From positions 530,501-594,500 of the forward strand of contig NZ_CP022372.1 in assembly GCF_002220095.1 (NCBI RefSeq): a stretch of DNA of 64,000 nucleotides. The letters are read 5' to 3'. Each line of letters opens with the position of its first letter. Within the stretch, counting starts at the first letter, position 1. This document shows positions 38,681 through 55,527 of this stretch, in pieces. Source of the DNA: Bosea sp. AS-1. GTDB lineage: Bacteria > Pseudomonadota > Alphaproteobacteria > Rhizobiales > Beijerinckiaceae. The position numbers and the translations under genes are program-made. The notes beneath the pieces are model-generated. The model made no database searches. It had not been told where the DNA came from and saw only the letters and a list, made by a program, of their open reading frames with translations.

Positions 38681-39006
38681 TGGCTGGGCCGCAAGCCGGA
38701 TCGGGTTGGATGAGCTTCGCCGCTGTGGCGGCGGGGCTCGCAGCGGCTCCGGCCCATGCGGCGGCCGACCGGGCGCTCGGGGAATATCTCTCGGCCGAAT
38801 GCGCGACCTGCCATGTGGGCAGCGCGCCGAAGGCGGGCGCCATCCCAGCGCTTGCGGGCATGCCCGCCGACCAGTTCACCGCGCTGATGATGGCGTATCG
38901 GCGGGGTGATCGCGACAATGCGGCGATGCGCAATGTCGCCAAGCAACTTTCGGAAGAGGATATCGCGGCTCTGGCCGCCTATTACGAGGGGCTGAAAGCC
39001 CCCTGA
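38680..39006 (+). CDS. Small class I c-type cytochrome, SoxE/FccA-like
   Basis: Exported monohaem cytochrome of 108 residues, with leader ending APAHAAA. The haem motif is CATCHVGSAPKAG, and the C-terminal segment IAALAAYYEGL is typical of cytochrome c553/c4-like domains and of the haem subunit of flavocytochrome c sulfide dehydrogenase. Translationally coupled to soxD (TGATG). It could be the second haem module of SoxD made as a separate chain, or the electron acceptor of SoxF two genes downstream; the second seems likelier from sequence style. Confidence 0.75.
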   Translation: MAGPQAGSGWMSFAAVAAGLAAAPAHAAADRALGEYLSAECATCHVGSAPKAGAIPALAGMPADQFTALMMAYRRGDRDNAAMRNVAKQLSEEDIAALAAYYEGLKAP

Positions 39007-39040
39007 CCGTCGATATGCGGCGGCCAACAGGGAGGAAAAG

Positions 39041-39565
39041 ATGACTGACAATGCAGTGATACCCTCGCGCCGCGGCCTGCTCGCGGCGGCCGCTTCTGGC
39101 CTCGCGGTGGCGGCCACCTCTGCCGCGGCAGCTCCGAAGGAGCTCAATCTCGCGGATATCAAGAAGGAGGCCGATGTCGCCTGCGTCTACCATTGCGACT
39201 TCGGCGACGTCGCCCGGTTCGACCAGATGCTGACCAATATCGCGAACCATTATTCGGCTTATGGTGCCGATCCTTTCGCGCTGCAGCTCGCTATCGTCGC
39301 GCATGGCGCCGGCGTGAAGTTCTTCCTGAAGGACCTCGAGGGGACGAGCTGGGTCGGTGACAGCGCCGCGTTGAAGGCGTTCGACCGGGTTGAGGCGCTC
39401 GCGAAGAACGGGCTCAAGATTCACCTCTGCGAGATCACCTTCCAGCGCAACAAGATCGACAAGACCAAGGCGCGGGATGTCCCCTTCGCCAGCTTCGTCC
39501 CCTCCGGTGTCGCGGCGGTCGCGGCGCTGCAGGCGAAGGGTTTCGCCTATCTGAAGGTCGGTTGA
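39041..39565 (+). CDS. Tat-exported DsrE-family protein
   Basis: Protein of 174 residues with a twin-arginine leader (PSRRGLLAAAASGLAVAA) followed by a DsrE/DsrF-like fold. The landmark AIVAHGAGVKFFLKD and a conserved cysteine in IHLCEITFQRNK are visible. Cytoplasmic relatives carry persulfide on that Cys. Here the protein is apparently exported, between the SoxE-like cytochrome and SoxF, so it may be a periplasmic sulfur relay for sulfide oxidation. The role is inferred. Confidence 0.78.
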   Translation: MTDNAVIPSRRGLLAAAASGLAVAATSAAAAPKELNLADIKKEADVACVYHCDFGDVARFDQMLTNIANHYSAYGADPFALQLAIVAHGAGVKFFLKDLEGTSWVGDSAALKAFDRVEALAKNGLKIHLCEITFQRNKIDKTKARDVPFASFVPSGVAAVAALQAKGFAYLKVG

Positions 39566-39571
39566 GCGGTC

Positions 39572-40843
39572 ATGAGGTTTGACCGGCGGACGATGCTGCG
39601 TTCGGGGCTGGCAGCCGCGGCAACGCTGGCGGCGCCGGCCGTGCTCGGCCAGGCGAAGCCGCGCGTCGTGGTGATCGGCGGCGGCGCGGGCGGCGCCACG
39701 GCCGCGCGCTACCTCGCCAAGGATTCGAATGGCGCGTTGGCCGTGACACTGGTGGAAGAGAACGAGCTCTATCACACCTGCTTCCACTCGAATCTCTACC
39801 TCGGCGGCTTCAAATCCTATGACGAGATCACGCATCGCTACGATGCGCTGACGGGTCGATATGGCATCGCGCTCGTCCGAGCCCGTGCCATGCGGATCGA
39901 CCGGGACAAGCGCGAGATCGTCCTCGCCGACGGGCAGCGCCTGCCTTACGATCGCCTCGTCGTCTCGCCCGGCATCGATCTCAAATATGATTCCGTCCCC
40001 GGCTGGTCGAAGGCGGCCGAGGAGATCATGCCGCATGGCTGGAAGCCCGGCCCGCAGACGCAGCTCATCAGGCAGAAGCTCGATGCCGTGCCCAATGGCG
40101 GGACGATCGTGATGATCGCGCCCCCCAACCCTTATCGCTGTCCGCCGGGGCCTTACGAGCGTGCCTCGATGTTCGCCCATGCGCTGAAGAGCACCGGGCG
40201 CGGCGACGCCCGGATCGTGATCCTCGACCCCAAGGAGAGCTTCTCCAAGCAGGGCGTCTTCCAGGAAGGCTGGGAGAAATACTTCGGCTCGATGATCGAA
40301 TGGCTCGGGCCCAAGGTGCATGACGGGGTCAAGTCGGTCGACCCCGCCACCAACACCGTCGTCACCGGCTTCGAGACCTATCGGGACTGCGCCTTCGTCA
40401 ATGTCGTGCCGGCCCAGATGGCCGGCGAGATCGCCCGCAGCGCGGGGCTCGCGCCCGAGGGCGGCTACTGCGCCATCGATCCGGCCACGATGAAATCGAC
40501 CGCCGATGCGAATATCTATGTCCTCGGAGATGCCTGCATCGCCGGCGACATGCCGAAATCGGCCTTCGCCGCCAACAGCCAGGCCAAGGTCGCGGCGATG
40601 ACGATCCGGGTGGAGCTGACGGAAGCACGCAGCTTCCCGCCGCGCTACCTCAACACCTGCTGGTCGCTGATCGAGACCGACGATGCGATCAAGGTCGGCG
40701 GCCGCTACGAACCGCGTGACGGCCGCATCGCGGCAATCGAAACCTTCGTCTCGCAGAATGACGAGCCCGCCGATCTGCGCCGGCAGAACGAGGCCGAGAA
40801 CCTCGGCTGGTACGCGGCGATCACGGCCGACATGTTCTCGTGA
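39572..40843 (+). CDS. soxF: Flavocytochrome c sulfide dehydrogenase flavoprotein, SoxF
   Basis: FAD enzyme of 423 residues oxidising sulfide to sulfane sulfur. A Tat leader (FDRRTMLRSGLAAAATLAA) precedes the dinucleotide fold VVVIGGGAGGATAARYL. The redox cysteines match RCPPGPYER and NTCWSLIE. It also has YVLGDACIAGDMPKSAFAANSQ near the C-terminal FAD domain. It starts 6 bases after the DsrE-like gene. It would pass electrons to a small c cytochrome. Confidence 0.92.
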   Translation: MRFDRRTMLRSGLAAAATLAAPAVLGQAKPRVVVIGGGAGGATAARYLAKDSNGALAVTLVEENELYHTCFHSNLYLGGFKSYDEITHRYDALTGRYGIALVRARAMRIDRDKREIVLADGQRLPYDRLVVSPGIDLKYDSVPGWSKAAEEIMPHGWKPGPQTQLIRQKLDAVPNGGTIVMIAPPNPYRCPPGPYERASMFAHALKSTGRGDARIVILDPKESFSKQGVFQEGWEKYFGSMIEWLGPKVHDGVKSVDPATNTVVTGFETYRDCAFVNVVPAQMAGEIARSAGLAPEGGYCAIDPATMKSTADANIYVLGDACIAGDMPKSAFAANSQAKVAAMTIRVELTEARSFPPRYLNTCWSLIETDDAIKVGGRYEPRDGRIAAIETFVSQNDEPADLRRQNEAENLGWYAAITADMFS

Positions 40844-40886
40844 CGATCACTCCGCTCCTTCTCGCAGCCATCCCAGAGGATTTCGC

Positions 40887-41273
40887 ATGAAACTATTGGT
40901 TCCCGCCGCCCTTCTGATCGTCCTGTCCGCCTCGCAGGCCGCCAACGCGCAGGACCTGTCGGCCGGTGAGCGCTCCTTCAACAAGTGCAGGGCCTGCCAC
41001 CAGGTCGGCGAGACTGCGAAGAACGGCGTCGGGCCGGAGTTGAACGGGCTGTTCGGGCGCCACACCGGCGCGGTCGAGGGATACAGCTACTCCGCGGCCA
41101 ACAAGGGCGCCAACATCACCTGGGACGAGGCGACCTTCGCCGAATACATCAAGGACCCCAAGGGCAAGATCCCCGGGACGAAAATGGTTTTCGCCGGCAT
41201 CAAGAACGAGAAGGAGGTCGCGGACCTGACCGCGTTCCTGAAGCAGTTCGGCAAGGACGGGAAGAAGATGTAA
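40887..41273 (+). CDS. Cytochrome c550/c2-like electron carrier
   Basis: Periplasmic class I cytochrome of 128 residues: leader ending NAQDL, haem motif KCRACHQVGE, axial methionine in GTKMVFAGIKN. The length and the GPELNGLFGR and YSAANK motifs match mitochondrial-like cytochromes c2/c550. It is the likely soluble shuttle from SoxXA, SoxCD and SoxF to the terminal oxidase. Last gene of the sox plus-strand run; an intrinsic terminator follows. Confidence 0.93.
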   Translation: MKLLVPAALLIVLSASQAANAQDLSAGERSFNKCRACHQVGETAKNGVGPELNGLFGRHTGAVEGYSYSAANKGANITWDEATFAEYIKDPKGKIPGTKMVFAGIKNEKEVADLTAFLKQFGKDGKKM

Positions 41274-41303: not shown

Positions 41304-42332
41304 TCAGAGCGTTCGGGTGACCTTGCTCAGATGCGGCGGGCGGTCGGGGTCCAGCCCCCTTGCCGCTGCCAGCCCGGCAATGCCGCCATAGAAGGCGCGC
41401 GCCTGGACGAGTGGTGCCAGAACGGCCGGGACATCCGCTGGCATGGGTAGGGCGAGGGTGGACGGCACAGCGAGTGGCCCGGCATAGGCGACATCCGCCC
41501 CCAGGCTGGCGACGGTACGTGCGGCAGACTGCGTGCTGTCGCTGCCTTCGTCGGAAGGGTCGAGCGCCAGGACCGGAAAGCCGGGGCGGACCAGCGCCAG
41601 TGGGCCGTGAAGGACCTCCGCCGCGCTGAAGGCCTCCGCGTGAAGGCGGCAAGTCTCCTTGAACTTCAGCGCCATCTCCTGAGCGATTCCCAGCCCGAGG
41701 CCGCGGCCGATGACATAAAGGCTGCTGGCTTGCTCGAGCCGCTGGAAGAAGGGCGACCAGTCGCAGTTCCCAGCCTGGGTCAGGAAATCGGGTGCGCTTT
41801 CCAGCGTTTCCATTAGGGAGGGCTCGCGGCTCCAGGCGACGGCGAGGTGCAGGAACGCGATGCAGGTGGCGAGGAAGCTCTTCGTGGCGGCGACGCTGGT
41901 CTCCGGCCCGGCGGAAAGCGGCAGCGTGACGTCGACCAGCTCTGCGAGCGGGGCGGTCGTGTCGTTGATCAGGCCGATCGTCAGCGCGCCACCGCGTTTG
42001 GCCGCTTCGGTCAATCGCAGAGCGTCGGGGCTTCGACCGGATTGCGAGATGGCGATGAAGACGGCCCCGGAGAGATCGAGTTCTTCCCGGTAGACCGAGG
42101 CGAGGCTGGGCCCCAGCGAAGCGACGGGCAGGCCGAGCGCGCGCTCGATCAGATATTTTCCATAAGTCGCGGCATGGTCGGAGGAGCCGCGTGCGCAGGT
42201 TGCGACGAAGGCCGGCCGGCGCCGACGTAACTGCTCGCCGAGCGCGGCCATGGCCGCCGCGTTAGCGGCAATCTGGCGCGCGGCGACATCGGCGGATTCG
42301 GCCGCCTCGCGGGCAAGGAGGGCTTCAGGCAT
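41304..42332 (-). CDS. SIS-domain sugar isomerase/deaminase (NagB-II, AgaS or FrlB-like)
   Basis: Cytoplasmic protein of 342 residues with two SIS sugar-phosphate domains and no glutaminase domain. ARGSSDHAATYGKYLIE, AISQSGRSPD and SAGPETSVAATKSF form the first domain; HGPLALV lies in the second, and the C-terminus is DPDRPPHLSKVTRTL. These are close to the isomerase half of GlmS and to stand-alone aminosugar-6-phosphate deaminases. Fructoselysine-6-phosphate deglycases belong to the same superfamily. Last gene of the ROK-controlled operon; it overlaps the kinase gene by 8 bases. Confidence 0.85.
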   Translation of the reverse strand: MPEALLAREAAESADVAARQIAANAAAMAALGEQLRRRRPAFVATCARGSSDHAATYGKYLIERALGLPVASLGPSLASVYREELDLSGAVFIAISQSGRSPDALRLTEAAKRGGALTIGLINDTTAPLAELVDVTLPLSAGPETSVAATKSFLATCIAFLHLAVAWSREPSLMETLESAPDFLTQAGNCDWSPFFQRLEQASSLYVIGRGLGLGIAQEMALKFKETCRLHAEAFSAAEVLHGPLALVRPGFPVLALDPSDEGSDSTQSAARTVASLGADVAYAGPLAVPSTLALPMPADVPAVLAPLVQARAFYGGIAGLAAARGLDPDRPPHLSKVTRTL

Positions 42333-43272
42333 CGATGCGGTCTTGGCTGTGCAGCAGGTCTCGGCTCATCGCGTCGACATCGGTACGGTCGAGCCGCGTC
42401 CCCGCTCCCCCGACGGAGCGCACGGACAGGGTTCCGCAGGCGATACCTTCCGCCAAGGCCAGCTCCGGCTGATGGCCGGCGAGCCAGGCCGCGAGGAAAC
42501 CGGCATTGAAAGCGTCACCGGCGCCTGTCGTGTCGAGAACCGGGCCGCCATCCGGTGCTGGCAGGGCGGTGGCCGAGCCACTCCGGAACAGCCGTGCGCC
42601 GTCGCCTCCGTCCTTGACGATCACGAGCGGGAAATCGCGAGCCAGCCGGAGCCCGGCCTGATCCAGATCGTCGCATCCGGTGATCGCGCGCGCTTCGGCG
42701 GCATTGGGCAGGAAGATATCTGCGCCAGCGGCGCGTGGCAGCAGCTCGGGATCGCGGATCCAGACGTCGTCCCAGCTCGGATCGAGCGAAACGGAGAGGC
42801 CGGCGCGCTTGGCCATCCGGATCAGCTCCGGGATCTCGGCCAGAGTCGCGAATTCGGCGATATGGAGATGCCGGGCGGCCGGGTCGGCGAGGGCCGCGTC
42901 CAATGTCGCCGGCCGGGCGCAGCCGGCGCGCCGCGACAGAAAGGCGCGCTCGCCATCCTTGATCATCGCGACGGTCGGTTGCGGGCCGGCATCGGCGGAA
43001 TGTTCGAGCCAGCGCAGATCGACACCGCTATCTGCCAACGCCGGCGCGATGGCGCCGGAGAGCGGATCGGTGCCGATCCGGGCGAGCAGCCCGGTCCGGA
43101 TGCCGAGCGCGGCGAGATGGGCCGCGGTGATGAAGCCGCCGCCGCCGGGCACGATCGATACCGCCTCGGCAAAGCGTTCCTCGCCGAGCCTCGGCAATGC
43201 GTCGATCCCGCGGAAAACGATGTCGCAGTAGAGGCGGCCGATGCTCAGGACGAAGTCGCGTCCGGTGGTCAT
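42325..43272 (-). CDS. PfkB family carbohydrate kinase
   Basis: Ribokinase-like sugar kinase of 315 residues. The N-terminal substrate region has PGGGGFITAAHLAALG, and the C-terminal catalytic motif is DTTGAGDAFNAGFLAAW with the base Asp. Fructoselysine kinase, fructokinase and tagatose kinase all belong here; specificity is not readable. It starts in an ATGA overlap with the ATPase gene. It probably phosphorylates the imported sugar compound at O6 before the SIS enzyme acts. Confidence 0.88.
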   Translation of the reverse strand: MTTGRDFVLSIGRLYCDIVFRGIDALPRLGEERFAEAVSIVPGGGGFITAAHLAALGIRTGLLARIGTDPLSGAIAPALADSGVDLRWLEHSADAGPQPTVAMIKDGERAFLSRRAGCARPATLDAALADPAARHLHIAEFATLAEIPELIRMAKRAGLSVSLDPSWDDVWIRDPELLPRAAGADIFLPNAAEARAITGCDDLDQAGLRLARDFPLVIVKDGGDGARLFRSGSATALPAPDGGPVLDTTGAGDAFNAGFLAAWLAGHQPELALAEGIACGTLSVRSVGGAGTRLDRTDVDAMSRDLLHSQDRIDA

Positions 43273-44345
43273 AGGGCGCGCTCGGTCGCGGTGTCGAACA
43301 GGCGCAGGGCGTCGATGGCTGCGCCGAGCCGCACCTCGCTGCCGACGGCGGGCGGAGCCTTGGCCGAAGCCGAGGCGAGGATCAGCGTATCGCCATGCTC
43401 GACATGGACGAAGCTCTCCGAACCGAGCGGTTCGACCACTGCGACCTTGCCGGTGAGGACGAGATCGGCGTTTTCGCCGGGGGCAAGCACGCGCAATTCC
43501 TGCGGGCGGACGCCGACCAGCACCTCGGGGGGGAGTGGGGCCGGGCAGCTGGGCAGGGCGATAGCGTTGCCGGCCAGTTCCAGCGTCGATTTACCGTTAC
43601 CGGTGCTCGTCTTGGCCGGGAGAATGTTCATCGTCGGTGAGCCGATGAAGCGAGCGGTGAAGACGTCGGCCGGTTTCTCGTAGAGTTCCATCGGCGCGCC
43701 GACCTGGAGGATGCGGCCGTCGCGCATCACCACGATGCGGTCGGCCAGCGTCATCGCTTCGACCTGATCATGGGTGACGAAGACGATGGTGCGGCCGAGC
43801 CGCTGGTGCAGGCGCTTGATCTCCAGGCGCATCTGGGCGCGCAATTGCGCGTCGAGATTGGAGAGCGGCTCGTCGAACAGGAAAGCCGAGGGGTCGCGCA
43901 CCATGGCGCGGCCGATAGCGACGCGCTGCCGTTGGCCGCCGGACAATGCCGACGGCTTACGTTCGAGCAGTGGTTCGAGGCCGAGGATGCGGGCGGTCTC
44001 CTCGATCCGGCGGCGTTTCTCCGCCTTGTCGAGCTTCGCCGTATAGAGGCCGAAGCCGATATTCTCGGCGACGCTCATATGCGGGTAGATCGCGTAGTTC
44101 TGGAACACCATCGCGATGTTCCGCTCCTTCGGCTCCAGCCGGTTCACGGGCCGATCCGCGATCGTGATGGTGCCGCCGTCGATCTCTTCCAGACCCGCGA
44201 TCATGCGCAGCGTCGTCGACTTGCCGCAGCCGGAGGGGCCGACGAAGACGACGAATTCGCCATCCTCGATGGCGAGGTCGATGCCGTGGACGACCTGCGT
44301 CTTGCCGTAGCGCTTGACCAGCCCCTGAAGCTCGATACCCGCCAT
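43269..44345 (-). CDS. Sugar ABC transporter ATP-binding protein, UgpC/MalK type
   Basis: ATPase of 358 residues with a C-terminal OB-fold (TOBE) regulatory region. Walker A GPSGCGKST, signature LSGGQRQRVAIGRAM, Walker B FLFDEPLSNLDAQLR and the switch histidine in VTHDQVEAMT are present. It powers the two permeases of the same operon. It overlaps the lyase gene by one base (TGATG). Confidence 0.93.
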   Translation of the reverse strand: MAGIELQGLVKRYGKTQVVHGIDLAIEDGEFVVFVGPSGCGKSTTLRMIAGLEEIDGGTITIADRPVNRLEPKERNIAMVFQNYAIYPHMSVAENIGFGLYTAKLDKAEKRRRIEETARILGLEPLLERKPSALSGGQRQRVAIGRAMVRDPSAFLFDEPLSNLDAQLRAQMRLEIKRLHQRLGRTIVFVTHDQVEAMTLADRIVVMRDGRILQVGAPMELYEKPADVFTARFIGSPTMNILPAKTSTGNGKSTLELAGNAIALPSCPAPLPPEVLVGVRPQELRVLAPGENADLVLTGKVAVVEPLGSESFVHVEHGDTLILASASAKAPPAVGSEVRLGAAIDALRLFDTATERAL

Positions 44346-45859
44346 CAGGCTGCTCCCATCAGATCCGCGAAGGCGGCGTCGAGTTCATGGCGCGCGGAGG
44401 CCTCGCGCGCAGCGGTCGCGGTCGCGGCGAGGCTTGCCGCCACCAGCACGCCGCGATAACCGGCGAAGGCGGCGGCGAGCGCCTGTGGCCCCGGCCCGCC
44501 GAAGCGCTCGCGCACCGCGACGAAATGTTCGGGCGAGACGGCCTCGGCGAAGGCGGCCTCGTTCAAGGCCGGCTCGCGGCCGGCATGTTCGCGGAAAGCC
44601 TTTTGGAAGGGCGCGTAGCCGTCTCGCGGCAGGTCGCCATCAGCCGCGACCACGGCACGCGCGACATCGGCGGCGATCTCATGGGCGGTGCGGAAGGAGA
44701 GGTCTTCCGACCGGACCAGCGTGTCGGCCAGCTCGGTGATGGTGATGCAGGAGCGGCGGATGTTCTCGGCGACGCGACGTCCGTCGACCTGCAACGCCGG
44801 CAGCAGCGCGGCGAGCAGGCTCAGCACGCGCTCGCCGGTCGCGAAGGCCTGATAGCCGGCTTCGTTGGTTTCACCCTCGGCGTCGTTCATGTCGGTGAAG
44901 GGCGTGTTGTGGACGATGTCCCTGACCATCCGGGCGCGCGCCACGGTCTGCGACGCGAGATGGCGCAGATGCTCGATCGGGACGGGATTGCGCTTCTGCG
45001 GCATGATCGAGGAGATCTGCACGAAGGCATTGGGCACATAGAGCTGGCCGACCTCGAAGGCGGTCCAGACCTGCAAATCCTGGATCAGGCGACCGAGATG
45101 CAGGAACACGAGCTCGACCGCGCTGTAGGTCGCGGTGAGGTAATCGATCGCGGCGATGCAGCCATAGGAGTTCTGCAGCGGAGCCGAAAAGCCGAGCAGA
45201 TGCGCGACGCGGGTGCGATCCAGCGGGAAGCCCGAGGTCGTGATCGCGGCCGCGCCCATCGGCGAGAGATCGAGCAAGGCGCGCGCCTGCACCAGTCGCT
45301 CGTGGTCGCGCAGCATCACTTCGATCGCGGCGGAGAGGTAATGGCCGAAGGTCGTCGGCTGCGCCGGCTGGCCATGGGTATAGGCGACGATCAGCGTCGC
45401 CTTCTCGCGCTCGGCGAGGTCCAGGGTTGCGGTGATCAGGGCGCGCAGCAGGCCGGCCATATGGTCGAGCCGCGGCTTGAGGGCGAGCTTGAACAGCGTG
45501 TGGTCGATGTCGTTGCGCGAACGGCCGGTATGCAGGCGCCCGGCATCGTCGGCCGGCAGGCGCTTCTTCAGCTCGGCCTCGATCAGGAAGAAATAATCCT
45601 CGACCGAGCCGTCATAGCTCAGCTTGGCTGGGTCGATCTCGGCATCGATTTCGTCGAGCGCGCGGGCAATGCGGCCGGCGGTAGTGCGGGGCAGGATGCC
45701 GGTCTCGGCGAGCATGACGAGATGGGCGCGGTCGATGGCGCGGAAGCTCTGGACGTGATGCGTCCTCGCGCCGTCGAAGAGCGGACGTAGCACCGTCTCC
45801 TTGTAGACCGGATCGGGAAAGACGGAGGTATCGCTCGCGCGGGGATCGGTTTTCGTCAT
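44345..45859 (-). CDS. Argininosuccinate lyase-superfamily protein in a sugar operon
   Basis: Protein of 504 residues of the aspartase/fumarase/ArgH superfamily, which removes fumarate from N-substituted aspartates. Visible elements: DAGRLHTGRSRNDID (ArgH signature), THGQPAQPTTFGHYL with the conserved Thr-His, and the mobile loop SSIMPQKRNPVP with the catalytic serine. The loop ends RNPVPIEHLR instead of the KNPDxxEL usual in arginine-biosynthetic enzymes. The protein is also longer, with an extended C-terminus. This resembles divergent lyases such as EDDS lyase. Location between permease and ATPase genes speaks against a housekeeping arginine role. ATG 45859 is the only start fitting the family N-terminus. 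Confidence 0.8.
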   Translation of the reverse strand: MTKTDPRASDTSVFPDPVYKETVLRPLFDGARTHHVQSFRAIDRAHLVMLAETGILPRTTAGRIARALDEIDAEIDPAKLSYDGSVEDYFFLIEAELKKRLPADDAGRLHTGRSRNDIDHTLFKLALKPRLDHMAGLLRALITATLDLAEREKATLIVAYTHGQPAQPTTFGHYLSAAIEVMLRDHERLVQARALLDLSPMGAAAITTSGFPLDRTRVAHLLGFSAPLQNSYGCIAAIDYLTATYSAVELVFLHLGRLIQDLQVWTAFEVGQLYVPNAFVQISSIMPQKRNPVPIEHLRHLASQTVARARMVRDIVHNTPFTDMNDAEGETNEAGYQAFATGERVLSLLAALLPALQVDGRRVAENIRRSCITITELADTLVRSEDLSFRTAHEIAADVARAVVAADGDLPRDGYAPFQKAFREHAGREPALNEAAFAEAVSPEHFVAVRERFGGPGPQALAAAFAGYRGVLVAASLAATATAAREASARHELDAAFADLMGAA

Positions 45860-45864
45860 GGCAA

Positions 45865-46707
45865 TCAGCCCTTGAGACCGGCGAGGACCACGCCGCGCAC
45901 GATATAGCGCTGGAGCAGCAGGAAGACGGTCAATGTCGGCAAGGTGGCGAGCGCGGCGCCCGTCATGATCAACTCCCACTGGACCTGCGATTCCACCGCG
46001 AAGCTCGTGAGGCCGACCGGCAAGGTGTAGAGTTCCTTGGAGGTCGTCACGATCAGCGGCCAGATGAAGGCGGTCCAGTTGCTGAGGAAGGTGAAGATCG
46101 CCAGCGCCGAGAGGGCCGGCGTCACCAGTGGCAGGGCGATGCGCCAGAAGATCGCGAATTCGTTGAGGCCGTCGATGCGGGCGGCTTCGAGGAAGTCGTT
46201 CGGCACGGTCTCGAAGAACTGTTTCATCAGGAAGGTGCCGAAGGCCGTCATCATGCCCGGGAACATGATGCCCCAGTAACTGTCGAGCCAGCCGAAGTTC
46301 TTGGCCATGACATACCAGGGGATGACCAGCATCTCGGTCGGGATCATCAGCGTCGAGAGAATGGCGATGAAGACGAGATAGCGGCCGCGGAACTGGAATT
46401 TTGCCAAGGTGTAGCCGACGAGGCTGTCGAAGAAGACGTTCGAGAGCGTGACCGCTGTGGCGATGCCGAAGGAATTGGCGAACCAGCGCAGGAAGCGGCC
46501 GTCCGAAAGCACAGTCACGTAGTTGGCGAGCGTCGGGTGGGCCGGGAAGAAGGCGAGATCGTAGATCTCGGAGGAATCCTTCAGCGAGGTCGCGAACATG
46601 AAGGCGAGCGGCGTCACCATTAGCAGGCCGCCGCCGAAAAGCAGTAGCCATGCGAGGATGCGGCCGGGCTCGAAACGCAGGGTCATGGGGGAAGCGGCGG
46701 CGCTCAT
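45865..46707 (-). CDS. Carbohydrate ABC transporter permease, MalG type
   Basis: Inner-membrane permease of 280 residues with six hydrophobic segments and the EAA loop LEAARIDGLNEFAIFWRIALP. It pairs with the MalF-type permease, whose stop overlaps its start (TGATG), and precedes the lyase gene by 5 bases. Confidence 0.93.
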   Translation of the reverse strand: MSAAASPMTLRFEPGRILAWLLLFGGGLLMVTPLAFMFATSLKDSSEIYDLAFFPAHPTLANYVTVLSDGRFLRWFANSFGIATAVTLSNVFFDSLVGYTLAKFQFRGRYLVFIAILSTLMIPTEMLVIPWYVMAKNFGWLDSYWGIMFPGMMTAFGTFLMKQFFETVPNDFLEAARIDGLNEFAIFWRIALPLVTPALSALAIFTFLSNWTAFIWPLIVTTSKELYTLPVGLTSFAVESQVQWELIMTGAALATLPTLTVFLLLQRYIVRGVVLAGLKG

Positions 46708-47648
46708 CAGCGGTCCCTCAGCAGCCTGAGCTGCAGCAGCGAGACCACCAGCAGCACGAGGAATAGCACGACGGTCTGGGCCGCGGCATAGCCCATGTCG
46801 AAGGAGGAGAAGGCCGTCTGGTAGATCATCAGCACGAGCGGCTTGGTGGCGTTCAGCGGGCCGCCCGGGTCGCTGCTCGTCTGGCTGGTCATGTTGTAGA
46901 CCTGATCGAAGATCCGCAGGAACCCGATCGAGGAGAAGACGACGAGGAAGACGATCGTCGGCTTGAGCAGCGGCAGGGTGATCCGCCGCAGGATCGTTCC
47001 GTTCGAGACGCCGTCGATGCGGGCGGCCTCGTAATAGGTCGTCGGGATGGCGCGCAGGCCTGCCATGAAGATCACGACCTGGAAGCCGAGCCCGGCCCAG
47101 ATCGCGGGCGCGAGCACGGCCGGCAGCGATTGCGTGGTCGAGCGCAGGAAGGGCTGCTGGGCGATGCCGATGCCGGCGAGCAGGTTGTTGAACAGGCCGA
47201 TCGGCACCGGCTGGTAGAACCAGCGCCAGACCCAGGCCATCGCCGCCGCGGTCGTCAGGAAGGGCAGGAAATACAGCGCCCGGATGAAGCCGTGCAGGAA
47301 GCGCACGCGGTCGAGATGATAGGCGATGGTGAAGGCGAGCAGCAGGCTGATCGGCGTGCCAAGCAGCAGGTAGAGCGCGGTATTGCGGAAGACCTGCCAG
47401 AAGACCGGATCGGCAACGAGCCGCTTGAAATTGGCGAGCCCGATGAAGGAGGGCTTGGTCAGCAGGTTCCAGTTTGTGGTGGAGATCCAGAAGGCTTCCA
47501 GCGTCGGATAGAAGCGCACCACCGCATAGAACAGGATCGGCACCGCCAGGAAGGACCAGGCCCAGAGGACCTGCTTCTGGCGCATGCCGAATCCGGATAG
47601 GAGGCGGGCGCCGGAACGGGCGTCGTCGTGAGAGGAAGACGGGTTCAT
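46707..47648 (-). CDS. Carbohydrate ABC transporter permease, MalF type
   Basis: Inner-membrane permease of 313 residues, with about six hydrophobic segments after a charged N-terminus. EAA loop: YEAARIDGVSNGTILRRITLP. ATG 47648 lies 31 bases after the binding-protein gene; longer frames would run back into that gene and are rejected. Confidence 0.93.
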   Translation of the reverse strand: MNPSSSHDDARSGARLLSGFGMRQKQVLWAWSFLAVPILFYAVVRFYPTLEAFWISTTNWNLLTKPSFIGLANFKRLVADPVFWQVFRNTALYLLLGTPISLLLAFTIAYHLDRVRFLHGFIRALYFLPFLTTAAAMAWVWRWFYQPVPIGLFNNLLAGIGIAQQPFLRSTTQSLPAVLAPAIWAGLGFQVVIFMAGLRAIPTTYYEAARIDGVSNGTILRRITLPLLKPTIVFLVVFSSIGFLRIFDQVYNMTSQTSSDPGGPLNATKPLVLMIYQTAFSSFDMGYAAAQTVVLFLVLLVVSLLQLRLLRDR

Positions 47649-47679
47649 CGCGACAATCCGCTCCGGCGCCCGCTGAGAT

Positions 47680-48939
47680 TCACTTCTTGTAGAAGCGGTC
47701 GAGGATCGGCTGCTCGGCGGCCGCGGCTTCCGCCAAGGCGGCCTTGGCATCCTGGTTCTGCAGCAGCACGCGATTGATCATGTCGAGTGAGACCTGGCGC
47801 TGAGCCAGTTCGTCGACGAAGACCGTGGCGTGCGAATAGGCGAGCGCTTTGAGGAACGGCCCGTAGATCGGGTGGTTCAGGTTCTTCTCGGTCTCGGCCG
47901 CCGCCTTGCGTGCCGGCAGCTCGCCGACGGTTTCGAGCCAGAGCTGCATTGCCTCGGGGGTCGTGACGAAGGCAAGGAACTTCTTGGCCGCTTCCAGTTT
48001 CTCGCCCGTAGGCTTGGTGGTGATGGCGTTGACCCAGTAGCTGGCGAAGTTCGCCTTCTTGCCGTCGGCAGAGGCGGGTAGCTCCGCGACGCCCCACTCG
48101 AAATTCTTGATGCCGCCGAAGGCGCCGAGACGGAAGGAGCCGTCGATGGTCATCGCCGCACGCCCGGCGCGGAAGGCGGCCTGGCCCTCGTCCATGAAGC
48201 CGACCTGGCCGACCTTGTGGACGCGCTGGAGATCGGCATACCAGTTCAGAGACTTGGCGCCGGCCTCGCTGTTGTAGGTCACGGTTTTGTTGTCGTCGCT
48301 ATAGGGTGCGCCGCCGTTCTGGCGCAGCAGCGTCTCGCGCCACCAATGGTAGTCCTGACCGGGGAAGTCGAGCGTAATGCCGGCGGAGAGCATGTTGCCG
48401 GCGCCGTCGCGCTTGGTCGTCTTCTTGGCCATGTCGAGCAGTTCGTCGACGGTCTTCGGCGGCTTGTTCGGGTCGAGCCCGGCCTCCTGGAAGATCTTCT
48501 TGTTGTAGAACAGGGCCAGCGAGCGCACCGCCGTCGGCAGGGCATAATATTCGCCGTCGCGCTTCATCGCCGAGACGATCGGATAAAACTCCTTCTCGAT
48601 CATGGCAGGCGGGAAGGCGTCGCGCGGCAGCGGCTGGATGAACTTGGCGCCGACGAAATTGTCGAGCCAGCCATAGAAGAGCTGCACGACGTCGGGGCCC
48701 TGGCCGGCCGGCATCGCGGCGGCGATCTTCGTCTGATAGTCGGCGTAGGGGAAGGTGGTCTGCTTGACCTTGATGTTCGGGTTGGCGGCCTCGAAGCGCT
48801 TGATCAGCTCGTTCATCGCCTTGACGCGCGCGTCGAAGACATACTGCCAGTATTCGATCTCGACGGTCTGTGCCTTCGCGCCGGCGATCGCACCGACCGA
48901 GACCATCAGACCCAACAGCATCCCGCGAAAACCGCGCAT
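47680..48939 (-). CDS. Sugar ABC transporter substrate-binding protein, family 1
   Basis: Periplasmic binding protein of 419 residues: leader ending AGAKAQ, then VEIEYWQYVFDARVKAMNELI. Further landmarks are AAMPAGQGPDVVQLFYGW and LPTAVRSLALFYNKKIFQEAGL, all typical of family 1 sugar-binding proteins. First gene of an operon of seven (binding protein, two permeases, lyase, ATPase, kinase, SIS enzyme). The ligand is unknown. Confidence 0.92.
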   Translation of the reverse strand: MRGFRGMLLGLMVSVGAIAGAKAQTVEIEYWQYVFDARVKAMNELIKRFEAANPNIKVKQTTFPYADYQTKIAAAMPAGQGPDVVQLFYGWLDNFVGAKFIQPLPRDAFPPAMIEKEFYPIVSAMKRDGEYYALPTAVRSLALFYNKKIFQEAGLDPNKPPKTVDELLDMAKKTTKRDGAGNMLSAGITLDFPGQDYHWWRETLLRQNGGAPYSDDNKTVTYNSEAGAKSLNWYADLQRVHKVGQVGFMDEGQAAFRAGRAAMTIDGSFRLGAFGGIKNFEWGVAELPASADGKKANFASYWVNAITTKPTGEKLEAAKKFLAFVTTPEAMQLWLETVGELPARKAAAETEKNLNHPIYGPFLKALAYSHATVFVDELAQRQVSLDMINRVLLQNQDAKAALAEAAAAEQPILDRFYKK

Positions 48940-49035
48940 GTTTCTCTCCCCTGTTCTCCCGCCCTCCGCCCCTGCCGGCGACGGCATTCGGGAGGCTCGC
49001 CGATATCGTCATCTCGCGGGCCCGCGGCTGTCAAT

Positions 49036-49064
49036 CAATTAATTCACTTGAGTTGGATTAATTG
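49036..49064. promoter_or_regulatory. Palindromic operator for the ROK repressor
   Basis: CAATTAATTC (49036-49045) and GGATTAATTG (49055-49064) are inverted with 9 of 10 matches around nine bases. The AT-rich palindrome lies in the 164-base gap between the divergent binding-protein and ROK genes. TTGACA, a possible -35 box for the sugar operon, abuts it on the minus strand (49034-49029), so a bound repressor would block that promoter. Confidence 0.6.
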
Positions 49065-49103
49065 CCGACGCAGGCTGTTTCCCCGTTCCTTCCCCGATCG
49101 CCT

Positions 49104-50342
49104 ATGCCGCACCGTCCCGTCCCGCCTTCCCGCAGCGTTGCCGTCGGCACCAATCCCGAGCGGACGCGAAGCCACAACCGCCGCGTGGTGCTGGAAACTG
49201 TGCGCCAGCACGGGCAGCTCGGCCGCTCCGACATCGCGGTGCTGACACGGCTGACGGCCCAGGCGGTCTCCAACATCGTTGCCGAGCTGGTCGAGGAAGG
49301 ATTCCTGATCGAGCTCGGCCGGCGCCGCACCGCGCGCGGCCAGCCGCCTGTGGAGTTCGCGGTCAATCCCGATGGTGGCATGACGGCGGGCATGGAGATC
49401 GCCGCGGACCACATCACCACAGTGCTCGTCGACCTCGCCGGCCGGGTCCGGGCGCAGCGCATCGCGCCGCTGGCCGATGCGACGGTCGCCGGCGTGCAAC
49501 AACTGGCTGCGACGGAGCTGGCCTGGGTGCGGCAAGCGGCCGGCTTGCCGGAGCGATTGCTCGGCTGCGGAGTGGTGATGCCTGGCCCCTTCGAGATCGA
49601 AGGCATGAGCTCGGTCGGGACCTCGCCCCTGCCGGGCTGGGCGGGGCAGGATGCGGCGCAGCTTCTCGCCGAGGCCCTGAACACACCGGTTGTCATCGAA
49701 AACGATGCCACCGCGGCGGCGGTCGGCGAGCATCTCCACGGTCTCGGGCGCAATCTGCGTCATTTCTGCCAGATCTATTTCGGGGCCGGCCTCGGGCTCG
49801 GCGTGATCATCGGAGGGCAGCCCTATCGCGGCGCCTTCGGCAATGCCGGCGAGATCGGCCATATCCCGGTGGTGGCGGGCGGGCGACTCTGCGCCTGCGG
49901 CGGGCATGGCTGCCTCGAGCGCTACGCCTCGGTCCACGCCCTGACCGAAACATTGCGGGAGGCCGGGATCGTAGCCGCCGGCCCGGAGGAGATCGTGCAG
50001 CTCCATCGGAGCGGGCATCCGGCCCTGACCGGCTGGGTTGCCGAGGCAGCGACCCTGCTGGCGCCGGTCGTAGCGATGCTGGAGAATCTGTTCGATCCCG
50101 AGACCGTCATCCTCGGAGGTGAGATGCCGGACGAGGTGGTCGATGCGATGATCGCCGCGATGACGCCGCTGCCGATCTCGGTGGCAAGCCGGAGAGGCCG
50201 CTCGATTCCACGGGTCCAGCGGGGGGCGACCGGAAGGCTCACGGCGGCACTCGGCGCAGCGGCACTGCCGCTGCTGGATACGATGACGCCCAAGCTCGAT
50301 CGCGTCAGCCTGGCCCCCGAGAGTGAGCTTTCGCCGGGCTGA
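49104..50342 (+). CDS. ROK family transcriptional regulator
   Basis: Regulator of 412 residues. The N-terminal winged helix (RSDIAVLTRLTAQAVSNIV) is followed by a ROK sugar-binding/kinase-like domain. The zinc-binding motif is CACGGHGCLE, and GAGLGLGVIIGGQPYRGAFG plus NDATAAA resemble the kinase active site. Members repress sugar operons and respond to the sugar or its phosphate. ATG 49104 is chosen over a TTG at 49062 that lies inside the operator. Divergent from the sugar operon, which it presumably represses. Confidence 0.9.
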   Translation: MPHRPVPPSRSVAVGTNPERTRSHNRRVVLETVRQHGQLGRSDIAVLTRLTAQAVSNIVAELVEEGFLIELGRRRTARGQPPVEFAVNPDGGMTAGMEIAADHITTVLVDLAGRVRAQRIAPLADATVAGVQQLAATELAWVRQAAGLPERLLGCGVVMPGPFEIEGMSSVGTSPLPGWAGQDAAQLLAEALNTPVVIENDATAAAVGEHLHGLGRNLRHFCQIYFGAGLGLGVIIGGQPYRGAFGNAGEIGHIPVVAGGRLCACGGHGCLERYASVHALTETLREAGIVAAGPEEIVQLHRSGHPALTGWVAEAATLLAPVVAMLENLFDPETVILGGEMPDEVVDAMIAAMTPLPISVASRRGRSIPRVQRGATGRLTAALGAAALPLLDTMTPKLDRVSLAPESELSPG

Positions 50343-50366: not shown

Positions 50367-51077
50367 TCAGACTGACAGGTATTGCGTCCGGATTGCTTCG
50401 TCGGCCTTGAGCGCGTTCATCGTCCCGGTGAAACGAATGGCGCCTTTTTCGATGATGGCGACACGATCCGCGACATTGCCGGCGAAGTGCAGATTCTGTT
50501 CGGAGAGCAGGATGCTCAGGCCTTCGCCCTTCAGCGCCAGGATGGCCTTGGCCATCTCCTCGACGATGACCGGCGCCAGTCCTTCCGAAGGCTCGTCCAG
50601 CAGCACGAGTCGTGGATTGCCCATCAGCGTGCGGGCGATGGTCAGCATCTGCTGTTCGCCGCCCGACATCGCTCCGCCTGGTCGGTCGCGCATGCGGCCG
50701 AGATTGGGGAAGAGCGCGAAGAGCCGGTCCGGCGTCCAGTGCGGCGCGCCTTCCCGTGGCGGGCGCTGGCCGACGGCGAGATTCTCCATCACGGAAAGTT
50801 CCGAGAAGATGCGTCGTTCCTCCGGCACATAGCCGATGCCGAGGCGCGCGATCTCGAAGGGCTCGCGCCCGTCGATCCGCTGCCCATCGAAGCGGATCTC
50901 GCCCGCCGACGGTGGCACCAGCCCCATCACCGCCTTGATCGTCGTCGACTTGCCGGCGCCGTTGCGGCCCATCAGGGCAAGCACCTCGCCCCGACCCATG
51001 TCGAAGCCGACGCCCCGCAGAATATGGGCGCGCCCGTAATAGGCGTCGAGCCCGGAAATCGCGAGAAGGGCCGTCAT
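50367..51077 (-). CDS. Branched-chain amino acid-type ABC ATPase, LivF-like
   Basis: ATPase of 236 residues: Walker A GRNGAGKST, signature MSGGEQQMLTIARTL, Walker B LVLLDEPSEGLAPV. LivF type. Last gene of a four-gene importer operon; its start overlaps the LivG-type stop by one base. Substrate unknown: such importers carry amino acids, amides, aromatic acids or urea analogues. Confidence 0.92.
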   Translation of the reverse strand: MTALLAISGLDAYYGRAHILRGVGFDMGRGEVLALMGRNGAGKSTTIKAVMGLVPPSAGEIRFDGQRIDGREPFEIARLGIGYVPEERRIFSELSVMENLAVGQRPPREGAPHWTPDRLFALFPNLGRMRDRPGGAMSGGEQQMLTIARTLMGNPRLVLLDEPSEGLAPVIVEEMAKAILALKGEGLSILLSEQNLHFAGNVADRVAIIEKGAIRFTGTMNALKADEAIRTQYLSV

Positions 51078-51862
51078 CAGTGCCCTCCCGAATTCGTGCC
51101 GGAGCCGAGATAGACGGCCCGCACCTGCGGGTCCTGTCGCACCGTCTCGGCCGGGCCGTCGGCGATCAGCCGGCCGCGATCCAGCACGATCACTCGGTCG
51201 GCATGGGCGAAGACCACATCCATGTCGTGCTCGGTGAACAGCACCGCGATGTTCTCCTCCGTCGCGATCCGGGCTGTCAGGGCCATCAGGTCCAGGCGCT
51301 CGCGCGGCGCCATGCCGGCCGTCGGCTCGTCCATCAGCAGGAGCTCCGGCCGGTTGGCGAGCGCCACGGCGAGCTCGACCCGCTTCAGGTCGCCATAAGC
51401 GAGCACGCCGCAGGCCCGGTCCGCCTGCTCCAGCATGCCGACTTGCGCCAGCAGTGCCTCGGCCATCGCGACATGGCGCGATCGTGCCGCCTGAAACGGA
51501 CTCCAGAGGTCGCCTTCCTTCGAGATCAGCGCCATCTGCACGTTTTCGCGCACTGTCATCGAGGTGAAGGTCGCGGTGATCTGGAAGGTGCGGCCGACGC
51601 CCCTGCGCCAGATGACGCGTGGCTTCAGCCCTGTGACCGGCTGTCCGGCGAGGACGACCTCGCCGCGGTCCGGCGCGAGCTGTCCGCCCAGCATGTTGAA
51701 GCAGGTCGTCTTGCCGGCGCCGTTTGGACCGATCAGCGCCACCATCCGGCCGGCTTCGACCGCAAAGGAGACACCCCGCACAGCGTGGACCCCGCCAAAG
51801 GATTTCGCGAGATCGCGCACCACCAGCACCGGCGCGGATGAGCGAGTGGTGACCGCGCTCAT
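51077..51862 (-). CDS. Branched-chain amino acid-type ABC ATPase, LivG-like
   Basis: ATPase of 261 residues: Walker A GPNGAGKTT, signature region LAYGDLKRVELAVAL and Walker B LLLMDEPTAGMAPRE with the AGMxP motif of LivG. The usual LSGGQ is replaced by LAYGD, which is common in this subfamily. ATG 51862 overlaps the fused permease gene by 4 bases. Confidence 0.92.
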   Translation of the reverse strand: MSAVTTRSSAPVLVVRDLAKSFGGVHAVRGVSFAVEAGRMVALIGPNGAGKTTCFNMLGGQLAPDRGEVVLAGQPVTGLKPRVIWRRGVGRTFQITATFTSMTVRENVQMALISKEGDLWSPFQAARSRHVAMAEALLAQVGMLEQADRACGVLAYGDLKRVELAVALANRPELLLMDEPTAGMAPRERLDLMALTARIATEENIAVLFTEHDMDVVFAHADRVIVLDRGRLIADGPAETVRQDPQVRAVYLGSGTNSGGH

Positions 51863-53718
51863 CGCGCGCCCTCCGTAGACGCAATTCGCTCGCGCCAGGC
51901 CAGGAAGCTGCCGACCAGCCCACGTGGAAACAGCATCACGAGCAGCACGATCGTGAGCCCGAGCGCGAAGCGCCAGTACAGGGTGAATTTGGCAAGCTGG
52001 TCGCTGAGGCCCGCATAGGCGAAGGCGCCGACGATCGGTCCGGAGACGGTCTGGACGCCGCCGAGCAGCACCATCAGCAGGGCATCGACCGAGCGCGGGA
52101 TCGCCAGATAGGTCGGGAAGACCGAGCCCTTGAAGAAGGCGAATAGCCCGCCAGCGATGCCGGCTGCGCAGGCCGCGATCGCGAAGGCGATCCATTGCAC
52201 GCGCATCGTGTCGATGCCGATCGCCTCGGCGCGGAGCGGATTGTCGCGGGAGGCGCGCAGCGCATAGCCCAATGGTGAGAACACCATGACGCGCAGCAGG
52301 AGCACGCAAGCGGCGCAGATACCGAGCGCGAGATAGTAGAACGCTGTCTTCGACACGGCCCAGCTCGAGGGCCAGACGCCCAGAATGCCGTTGTCGCCGC
52401 CGGTGAGCTCGACCCATTGGAAGGCGGTCGCCCAGGCTATCTGCGCGAAGGCGAGCGTCAGCATGGCGAGATAAACGCCCGACAGCCGGACGCAGAACCA
52501 GCCGAACACCGTCCCCGCGATGCCGGCGAGGAAGGGCGCGAAGAGCAGCGCCGGCTCCATCGGTGTGCCGAGCCATTTCACCGCGAGCGCCGCGCCATAG
52601 GCGCCGAGGCCGAAATAGGCGGCGTGGCCGAAGGACGCCATGCCGCCCGGCCCCATCATGAAATGCAGCGAGGCGGCGAAGAGGGTGAAGATCACGAGTT
52701 CGGTCAGAGTCAGCAGCAGGTAGTCCGGCGTGACCAGCGGAGCGATGGCGAGCAGCAACAGGGCAAGGAGGCCGGCGAGCCTGGTCGCCCGATCGGCTGG
52801 TTTCAGCAGCGGCTCGAGCGCCGGTCCGCGTGCCTGCCCGGTCGGGGGCTTGCCCAGGAGCCCGAAGGGCCTGACCACCAGGACGACGGCCATGACCAGG
52901 AAGACGAGGACCAGCGTGATCTTCGGAAAGATCAGGATGCCGAAGGCATGCAGAATGCCGATCAGCACCGCCGCCAGATAGGCGCCGGTGACGCTGCCGA
53001 GGCCGCCGACGACCACGACGACGAAGACCTCCGCGATCATCGACAGGTCCATATGCAGCGTCGCGGCCTCGCGCGGCAGCTGAAGCGCACCTCCAAGGCC
53101 TGCCAGACCGGCGCCGAAGGCGAAGACCGAGGTGAAGAGCAGGCGCTGGTTGACGCCGAGCGCCCCGACCATTTCGCGGTCCTGCGTCGCGGCCCGGACC
53201 AGCGTGCCCCAGCGCGTCTTCTGGAACAGGAACCAGAGCAGCGCCAGCACGGCCGGGCCGATGGCGATCAGCAACAGCTCATAGGTCGGGAAGCGGCTGT
53301 CGAACAGGATGACGAAGCTCTTGAAGCCCGGCGCGCGCGGGCCGAGCTTGTCCTCCGGCCCCCAGATCGCCAGCGCGATGTCCTGAATCATCAGCACGAC
53401 GCCGAAGGTGGCGAGGAGCTGGAAGAGTTCGGGCGCCTGATAGATCCGCCGCAGGATCGCGACCTCGATCAGGACGCCGATGCCGGCGACGAGCAGAGCG
53501 GCCAGCACGACTCCGCCCCAGAAGCCGAGGGGGCTCGCCGGTCCGAGCCATTCGACCAGCGTCCAGCCGAGATAGGCGCCCAGCATGTAGAGCGAGCCAT
53601 GGGCGAAGTTCACGATGCGGGTGACGCCGAAGATGATCGACAGCCCCGATGCAACGAGAAACAGCGACGAAGCGGAAGCGAGCCCGTTCAGCGTCTGCGT
53701 GAGGATGAGATCGAGCAT
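51859..53718 (-). CDS. Fused LivH-LivM type ABC permease
   Basis: Single membrane protein of 619 residues joining both pore subunits. Residues about 1-285 are LivH-like (GLSIIFGVTRIVNFAHGSLYMLGAY, GGLGSVTGAYLAAVLIG). A polar linker around residues 285-310 (GKPPTGQARGPALEPLLKPA) leads to a LivM-like half (GPGGMASFGHAAYFGLGAYG). About 18 hydrophobic segments in all. A fixed 1:1 subunit ratio follows from the fusion. Confidence 0.92.
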   Translation of the reverse strand: MLDLILTQTLNGLASASSLFLVASGLSIIFGVTRIVNFAHGSLYMLGAYLGWTLVEWLGPASPLGFWGGVVLAALLVAGIGVLIEVAILRRIYQAPELFQLLATFGVVLMIQDIALAIWGPEDKLGPRAPGFKSFVILFDSRFPTYELLLIAIGPAVLALLWFLFQKTRWGTLVRAATQDREMVGALGVNQRLLFTSVFAFGAGLAGLGGALQLPREAATLHMDLSMIAEVFVVVVVGGLGSVTGAYLAAVLIGILHAFGILIFPKITLVLVFLVMAVVLVVRPFGLLGKPPTGQARGPALEPLLKPADRATRLAGLLALLLLAIAPLVTPDYLLLTLTELVIFTLFAASLHFMMGPGGMASFGHAAYFGLGAYGAALAVKWLGTPMEPALLFAPFLAGIAGTVFGWFCVRLSGVYLAMLTLAFAQIAWATAFQWVELTGGDNGILGVWPSSWAVSKTAFYYLALGICAACVLLLRVMVFSPLGYALRASRDNPLRAEAIGIDTMRVQWIAFAIAACAAGIAGGLFAFFKGSVFPTYLAIPRSVDALLMVLLGGVQTVSGPIVGAFAYAGLSDQLAKFTLYWRFALGLTIVLLVMLFPRGLVGSFLAWRERIASTEGAR

Positions 53719-53837
53719 TCCGTCTCGTCTGGAGGCAAGGCGCAGCGAGGGTCCCGCGCGCCTGCAGGCTTAACCGGACCGTCGAACGGATCAAGCGGGC
53801 GTAGCGGTCTTCGGCCGCGATTGGGTGCGCACTCGGG

Positions 53838-55055: not shown

Positions 55056-55187
55056 CGTTCTTGTCCTCGATGGGTGTGGCTGCGCGGCATTCCGTCTCTC
55101 CGCCGCAGCGCCAGGCCAGTCTCTTGGCCATTCCACGCCGGTGCTGCAATGACCACCAGCCGTTGGAAAATCGTTGATGTGGCTGCG

Positions 55188-55216
55188 AATTTGCGAAGGG
55201 CGAAAATGCTTGTCAA
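55188..55216 (-). promoter_or_regulatory. Candidate sigma-70 promoter of the Liv-type operon
   Basis: On the minus strand TTGACA (55216-55211) is followed after 17 bases by CAAATT (55193-55188), a weak -10 box. It lies about 130 bases upstream of the binding-protein start. Confidence 0.3.
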
Positions 55217-55527
55217 CCGGCGGCCGGCCGGTTTCTGCCCATAGGGCAAGCCGTTGAAGCAGACTGCTGCGGAGCTCATCCGCATTCTCCCCCGCACGCC
55301 CGCCGATCTCTCGCAATCGCGAATTCATTGCGCAGCGCAGCGACACCTCTATCGCCTCTCTCTGGGCGTGACGATCCGGAAAATGCGATTCATTTCGCTC
55401 GACGAGCATGTGCGCCCTGTCCTGGGCTGGGATCGTCAGCCGGCAATTCGGCCCCGGCGTCGCGCTCCGATCGCTCAGCGCATTGGTCGGGCGGGTGGAA
55501 AGTTCTCCCGAAGGCAAGATGCGCGTT

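Follow-up and report, generated by a model that had tools for sequence, protein, structure and literature searches.

An ArgH-superfamily lyase within a ROK-associated sugar operon of Bosea sp. AS-1, and its candidate role in the breakdown of glucosamine conjugates

Within a 64,000-nucleotide (nt) stretch of the Bosea sp. AS-1 genome (hereafter the window; NZ_CP022372.1, positions 530,501 to 594,500), we identified an eight-gene operon in which a lyase of the ArgH superfamily is embedded among genes for sugar import, phosphorylation and deamination. Relatives of this lyase lack the arginine-side motif of argininosuccinate lyase and keep the company of the same transporter, of sugar kinases and, in most cases, of a PIG-L de-N-acylase. 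Our leading explanation, which we hold tentatively, is that the operon provides for the import of a glucosamine conjugate and its breakdown with release of fumarate. The genome is 5.84 Mb and the window has a GC content of 66%; the nearest named relatives of the locus are Bosea species. The operon comprises the following features:

49104..50342, plus strand: ROK-family transcriptional regulator (PF00480, 155 bits, and open reading frame call; an alternative in-frame TTG start lies at 49062)
49036..49064, strandless: AT-rich inverted repeat, candidate ROK operator, between the divergent ROK and binding-protein genes
47680..48939, minus strand: solute-binding protein of a CUT1-type ATP-binding cassette (ABC) importer (Pfam PF13416/PF01547)
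46707..47648, minus strand: ABC permease 1 (PF00528)
45865..46707, minus strand: ABC permease 2 (PF00528)
44345..45859, minus strand: ArgH-superfamily lyase of 504 amino acids (aa), proposed glucosamine-conjugate fumarate lyase (PF00206, Lyase_1, and PF14698, ASL_C2)
43269..44345, minus strand: ABC transporter ATPase of UgpC/MalK type (PF00005; NF008653, 474.6 bits, cut-off 432)
42325..43272, minus strand: PfkB-family sugar kinase, proposed glucosamine (or conjugate) kinase (PF00294)
41304..42332, minus strand: SIS protein, NagB-II-like, proposed glucosamine-6-phosphate deaminase (NF046059, 330 bits)

Open reading frame calls and a Pfam search of the eight products (ROK, SBP_bac_1/8, two BPD_transp_1, Lyase_1 with ASL_C2, ABC ATPase, PfkB and SIS) bear out the operon and its divergent ROK gene as drawn in the initial annotation. 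The tight coupling described there also holds: the seven other genes all lie on the minus strand, and by their coordinates SIS and kinase overlap by 8 nt, kinase and ATPase by 4, and ATPase and lyase as well as the two permeases by 1, with gaps of 5 nt between lyase and permease 2 and 31 nt between permease 1 and the binding protein.

The genome encodes six members of the ArgH superfamily, one of which (L002) lies outside the operon and is a canonical ArgH, scoring 593.4 bits on TIGR00838 (cut-off 279.5); the window's lyase barely passes the same model at 279.8 bits. Like ArgH, it has the Lyase_1 fold, YTH, the SS-MPQK-NP loop (here SSIMPQKRNP) with its subsequent Glu, and the catalytic His and Ser, but where the genome's own ArgH has the arginine-side motif YSKDMQEDKE, the lyase has HNTPFTDMND. 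The corresponding pattern, HN-[TVI]-P-[FY]-x-D-x-[NT]-D, is present in all 120 of the best homologues listed, of 7,664 found, and in 119 of the 120 listed, of 2,703, with a Deinococcus query, where the exception is a 289-aa fragment. The ArgH motif Y-N/S-K/R-D-x-Q-E-D, whose residues we take to serve the arginine side of the substrate, is present in L002 and in none of the 120 listed lyase homologues. Because a canonical ArgH is encoded elsewhere and this motif is lost, we reject argininosuccinate lyase as the identity of the protein, which, judged from its sequence, does not have the arginine-synthesis role of the genome's ArgH.

A monomer model of the lyase (mean predicted local distance difference test score, pLDDT, 81.8) finds its nearest solved fold in ethylenediamine disuccinate (EDDS) lyase (PDB 6g3d, 6rx8; template modelling score 0.82, 26% identity), with ArgH next. 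The active sites differ at several places: by the residue list in the accessible part of PMC12363623, Q159, D290 and Y320 of EDDS lyase correspond to His162, Val293 and Met324. D290, which that part of the paper gives as a residue near the substrate, is the Asp after NP that EDDS lyase shares with ArgH; Val takes its place in 120 of 120 listed homologues with the Bosea query and in 119 of 120 with the Deinococcus query.

The gene neighbourhood of the lyase is strongly conserved. A genome collection gave 557 pattern matches, 506 of them encoding a relative of the lyase (a total that will include other ArgH-family proteins), from which we took the best 80 loci, the closest relatives; an order-wide sample of 297 genomes contained 24 lyase-positive genomes including that of Bosea (E≤1e-120), and 20 of the other 23 were added. 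Counts refer to the 87 loci, out of 100 in all, whose flanks reach 7.5 kb or more in both directions. Each of the four transporter components (binding protein, two permeases, ATPase) is found in 83 of these, the four transporter-less loci (L103-L106) all coming from one genus. The ROK regulator is present in 76 and an EamA-family gene in 42. Two kinase types are mutually exclusive, with PfkB in 68 loci, a ROK kinase in seven, and both together in none; a SIS gene is present in 18 loci and NagB-I in three. As far as genomes can tell, the lyase is neither the only ArgH of its genome nor without conserved linkage to the sugar genes, two points on which the initial annotation had staked its reading of the enzyme.

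Most relatives carry a further partner beside the ROK gene, a protein of about 800 aa with an N-terminal PIG-L domain (PF02585; 64 of 87 loci). Its metal motif, HxDD plus a His, is invariant in all 22 proteins aligned, and in its structural model (mean pLDDT 87.9) the first part resembles MshB, BshB and chitobiose deacetylases and the last part a ThuA-like protein; a sequence search of the PDB with the 794-aa PIG-L gave no matches. This protein is present in 15 of 24 lyase-positive and none of 273 lyase-negative genomes of the order-wide sample, and in nine of 11 and none of 376, respectively, in a class-wide sample of 387 genomes; the two samples were drawn with the same settings, overlap in part, and are not independent of phylogeny. 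Where both proteins occur, they share a contig in 27 of 30 genomes, 0.1-4.9 kb apart, and lie on different contigs in three. The absence of a NagA-type deacetylase, as initially reported, holds for the window, but a lyase in place of a deacetylase is not the usual pattern, as most relatives possess both lyase and PIG-L. The PIG-L protein and the SIS gene are never found together (none of the 18 SIS loci has PIG-L, compared with 64 of the 69 others), an exclusion that reflects few events, not many, the SIS loci being mostly from Bosea and Alsobacter. The two PIG-L proteins of the window's genome lie, by eye, in aromatic-acid and polysaccharide clusters. As stated in the accessible part of a review, the LmbE/PIG-L enzymes known at its time all act on N-acyl-glucosamine cores (PMC4101496). 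In L098 and L099 (G202, G259) the ~800-aa PIG-L gene is present twice, the two copies lying close together on opposite strands.

The SIS protein scores best of all NCBI models on NF046059 (NagB-II), with 330 bits, under the cut-off of 430, and reaches 25 bits on the model for fructoselysine-6-phosphate deglycase (FrlB; cut-off 430); the PfkB kinase reaches 45.2 bits on that for fructoselysine 6-kinase (FrlD; cut-off 247). The NF046059 cut-off may be too strict for Alphaproteobacteria: no genome of 79 examined reaches it, though 38 hold strong matches, and the NagA-linked NagB-II of the window's own genome scores 341 bits. The solved chains nearest to the SIS protein are 7kqa, 3fj1 and the glucosamine-6-phosphate deaminase 8eol. 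Since the second NagB-II adjoins NagA at a separate locus (L008), the operon represents a separate pathway.

NagB-I is a glucosamine-6-phosphate deaminase family unrelated to NagB-II, and both act on 2-amino-2-deoxyhexose 6-phosphates. We found NagB-I (PF01182) in or next to the operon in Skermanella (L066), one member of the Rhodobacteraceae (L088), L099, L132, Paroceanicella (L141) and Loktanella (L159); on TIGR00502 (cut-off 236.9) the L066 protein scores 257.6 bits and the L132 protein 232.1, just under, and the gene is annotated nagB in L141 and L159. Of 42 lyase-positive genomes, 30 have NagB-II, as do eight of 37 lyase-negative ones (the negatives being a non-random set from printed lists), and all 12 lyase genomes without PIG-L possess it. 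Two unrelated deaminases at one place point to glucosamine-6-phosphate as the probable intermediate of the pathway, with the exact sugar not fixed by the deaminase families, and such an intermediate argues against an Amadori compound.

From these features we propose a pathway in which the CUT1 transporter, encoded in a ROK-controlled operon, would import a glucosamine conjugate bearing a four-carbon dicarboxylate. In most relatives PIG-L would first remove the N-acyl group; in Bosea, Alsobacter and some others without PIG-L, the conjugate may already have a free amine when it is imported. Elimination of fumarate from substituted succinates is the commonest chemistry of the ArgH superfamily, and the lyase would likewise release fumarate by beta-elimination. 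What remains would be glucosamine if the lyase acts before the kinase, and glucosamine-6-phosphate in the opposite order; either step may come first. The PfkB kinase would convert glucosamine to glucosamine-6-phosphate, from which the NagB-II-like SIS enzyme would form fructose-6-phosphate and ammonia. In its outline, an ArgH-superfamily and presumably fumarate-releasing lyase in an amino-sugar pathway whose last steps fall to a kinase and a deaminating SIS enzyme, this agrees with the initial annotation.

Entry at glucosamine-6-phosphate, together with a PIG-L acting on N-acyl-glucosamine, implies a substrate of the type N-acyl-glucosamine-X-succinate. We infer that X is more likely oxygen than nitrogen, because PIG-L would find no acyl group on a succinyl-bearing amino nitrogen. 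The diacid would thus be held as in glucosaminyl-alpha-O-malate, the one abundant compound of this structure known to us, and the enzyme would be a C-O lyase. Both bacillithiol (cysteinyl-glucosaminyl-malate) and its precursor, GlcNAc-malate (N-acetylglucosaminyl-malate), are built on glucosaminyl-malate. The lyase probably acts on a conjugate of the glucosamine type; that its substrate is an O-malyl glucosamine such as glucosaminyl-malate is plausible, falling a little short of probable. In the accessible part of PMC6282198, BshA is described as coupling malate with UDP-GlcNAc, and the predicted distribution of bacillithiol is very wide and spans many phyla.

The lyase also occurs with other transporters and on plasmids. 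In family f97 (L120, L123), the adjacent lyase and PIG-L genes point away from each other and a Dpp/Gsi-type binding protein is encoded beside them, and in L132 the lyase, a ROK kinase and NagB-I adjoin a PhnS/PotD-type importer. Four of seven Deinococcus plasmid loci viewed (L140, L145, L154, L155) carry ROK, lyase, transporter, a small PIG-L and PfkB, in the order ROK-lyase-(large PIG-L)-binding protein-permeases-small PIG-L-PfkB, with the large PIG-L in three of the four; the remaining three (L144, L146, L153) have lyase and transporter only. The transporters of D. ficus and the window are orthologous, with identities of 46% for the binding protein and 47% and 58% for the permeases (57.5% for permease 2); the lyases are 33% and the kinases 28% identical. 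The large Deinococcus PIG-L (L154:9524-11647, L155:9487-11751) has NEW3 and CBM9 domains in an operon that also contains the small PIG-L, and one of these large proteins has, by eye, a likely signal peptide.

Among plasmid records with a close homologue of the binding protein, 34 of 36 are among the 40 lyase records listed (of 102); the two exceptions, plasmids of Thermus oshimai and Deinococcus sp. AJ005, showed no lyase in the stretches viewed. We viewed 19 of the 40 listed lyase records. Those of Bosea sp. NBC_00550 (L137) and Terrarubrum (L138) have transporter and lyase, and kinase, deaminase and PIG-L were not found nearby. Most of the lyase-family plasmid records among those listed are annotated as argininosuccinate lyase.

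Several observations weigh against the pathway proposed here. The Bosea genome is without the ~800-aa PIG-L in a search with controls, so that the substrate need not be N-acylated, and MshB and BshB, the best Foldseek matches for the PIG-L model, are no specific pointer to bacillithiol. On the MshB model the small Deinococcus PIG-L reaches 145 bits, more than on Mca (106), BshB2 (81) or BshB1 (64), all under the cut-offs. The large Deinococcus PIG-L, with its NEW3 and CBM9 domains, looks exported by eye, and a glycan would then be a likelier target than a small thiol. In the tree, the Deinococcus lyases are not grouped with those of Alphaproteobacteria, which may or may not be their sisters. 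Within the monomer model of the lyase, pLDDT falls below 50 at residues 202-208 and 321-327, a range including the motif. NagB-II was not found in 12 of 42 lyase genomes, where NagB-I was not searched genome-wide, and neither kinase type was found near the lyase in 12 of the 87 loci. Finally, the L103-L106 lyase, an orthologue (~66% identical), stands outside any sugar operon, flanked by genes for an FMN-dependent hydroxy-acid dehydrogenase and a DUF3422 protein, with a GntR/FCD regulator. Glycolate or lactate, for example, would be a conceivable product in this setting, and we propose a second role or substrate for the lyase there. Genes resembling glcD, glcE and glcF (named by eye) lie close by.

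The L103-L106 setting also speaks for the broader view that the substrate is another amino-sugar conjugate, with a different acceptor or of galactosamine or mannosamine type, or that the lyase works as a hydratase or cycloisomerase. The NagB/SIS and kinase families are compatible with more than one sugar stereochemistry, and this view retains a small but real chance, although fumarate release is the superfamily's commonest chemistry. A C-N lyase acting on a Heyns-type N-(1,2-dicarboxyethyl)-glucosamine, the product of fructose and aspartate, or on its 6-phosphate, would yield fumarate and glucosamine or glucosamine-6-phosphate for deamination. It would suit the NagB-I and NagB-II deaminases, which take a 2-amino sugar, as well as the lack of PIG-L in Bosea, and the nearest solved fold, EDDS lyase, is itself a C-N lyase; however, PIG-L accompanies the lyase in most relatives and would have little to do on a succinyl-bearing nitrogen, and the Asp that EDDS lyase shares with ArgH is Val in the lyase family, and we consider this substrate unlikely. 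We regard as decidedly unlikely a malyl (1,2-dicarboxyethyl) ether of GlcNAc, analogous to muramic acid and part of a polysaccharide or of a glycan akin to peptidoglycan, from which an exported or cytosolic PIG-L would remove the acetyl group and the lyase would free fumarate. PIG-L, kinase and deaminase fit it, as do the carbohydrate-binding domains of the large Deinococcus PIG-L, but no glycosidase is a constant neighbour of the lyase loci and we know of no abundant glycan with a malyl ether substituent.

The initial annotation had favoured an Amadori compound, fructosyl-aspartate or -asparagine, that would be phosphorylated, cleaved by the lyase to release fumarate, and freed of its amine by the SIS enzyme. 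Such a route would yield 1-amino-1-deoxyfructose phosphate and need an FrlB-type deglycase; because the SIS protein is NagB-II-like (330 compared with 25 bits), the Amadori substrate is not supported. The frl and fra operons of Amadori catabolism do have broadly the same set of components (binding protein, permeases, PfkB kinase and SIS enzyme), but the operon's SIS protein and kinase fail the FrlB and FrlD models, NagB-I takes the SIS gene's place in other lineages, and PIG-L is the usual partner, which together make this substrate very improbable. A separate cluster on a Cereibacter sphaeroides plasmid (L148:1222-9552) is closer to the fructosyl-asparagine idea than the Bosea operon is: it has in a row an asparaginase, an amino-acid ABC importer, an MmgE/PrpD protein, an ArgH-like protein (TIGR00838, 344 bits) and an FrlB-like SIS protein (79 bits, under the cut-off). 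Least probable of all is a second argininosuccinate lyase, or a lyase for chelators of EDDS or iminodisuccinate type, placed in a sugar operon by chance. The narrow pass on TIGR00838 would allow it, but a canonical ArgH exists elsewhere, the ArgH motif is kept in none of the 120 listed homologues, and the lyase remains with kinase, deaminase and PIG-L where the type of transporter differs. Two further candidates were set aside: N-glycosidic GlcNAc-Asn, on chemical reasoning alone, and mycothiol, whose inositol cannot by our reasoning yield fumarate, yet the small Deinococcus PIG-L matches MshB best.

The breakdown of glucosaminyl-malate by the lyase would complement known bacillithiol metabolism. 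BshA, BshB and Bca share with the proposed operon the glucosaminyl-malate core and a PIG-L de-N-acylase or amidase, as far as the accessible parts of PMC4101496 and PMC6282198 describe them; those enzymes make or recycle glucosaminyl-malate, whereas the operon would break it down and release fumarate. We found no description of bacillithiol or glucosaminyl-malate breakdown via a lyase in the literature searched, which comprised titles and the openings of abstracts and included few subscription journals. It is possible, if rather doubtful, that the operon is the first dedicated catabolic route for bacillithiol-type compounds, composed of PIG-L, C-O lyase, kinase and deaminase and common to Alphaproteobacteria and Deinococcus. 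Should the proposed pathway be true, a widespread family labelled argininosuccinate lyase by databases would gain its real function, a glucosamine glycoside or conjugate would be cleaved by elimination, not hydrolysis, and it would become directly testable what happens to bacillithiol or related conjugates in the communities of soil and roots.

The glucosamine genes of Sinorhizobium meliloti, with the SM_b21217 kinase, the SM_b21216/21219-21221 transporter and SM_b21218, similarly combine an ABC importer with a sugar kinase and one more enzyme, in their case for a free amino sugar, the kinases being compared by description only; the accessible parts of the two reports mention no lyase for them (PMC11378808, PMC4961836). 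In a homologue search with the kinase, the S. meliloti matches belong to a 6-phospho-beta-glucosidase cluster.

The AT-rich dyad between the divergent genes, CAATTAATTCA-n7-TGGATTAATTG, has 11-nt arms with 91% complementarity and is a candidate ROK operator. The best dyad is of this type in 13 of 89 intergenic regions, all 13 from loci with a lyase identity of 80% or more, and a strict operator pattern occurs in two of the 89 compared with 0.02 expected from mononucleotide shuffles.

Two ArgH-family proteins without the lyase motif are further lyases of unexplained function: one in Geminicoccaceae (L147:3145-13699) adjoins ABC and CoA-transferase genes, and one in Haladaptatus (L149:6929-8416) adjoins MFS and mandelate-racemase-like genes. 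Locus L092 (JAHREI010000008.1), titled Bacillus subtilis SK6B4, is near-identical in gene map and identities to the Pseudochrobactrum locus L087, and the assembly is probably mislabelled or contaminated. In the window, as judged by eye from open reading frames, branched-chain-amino-acid-type ABC transporter genes (50367-55517) adjoin the ROK gene, and c-type cytochrome-, DsrE- and flavocytochrome sulfide dehydrogenase-like genes (37919-41273) stop shortly before the SIS gene.

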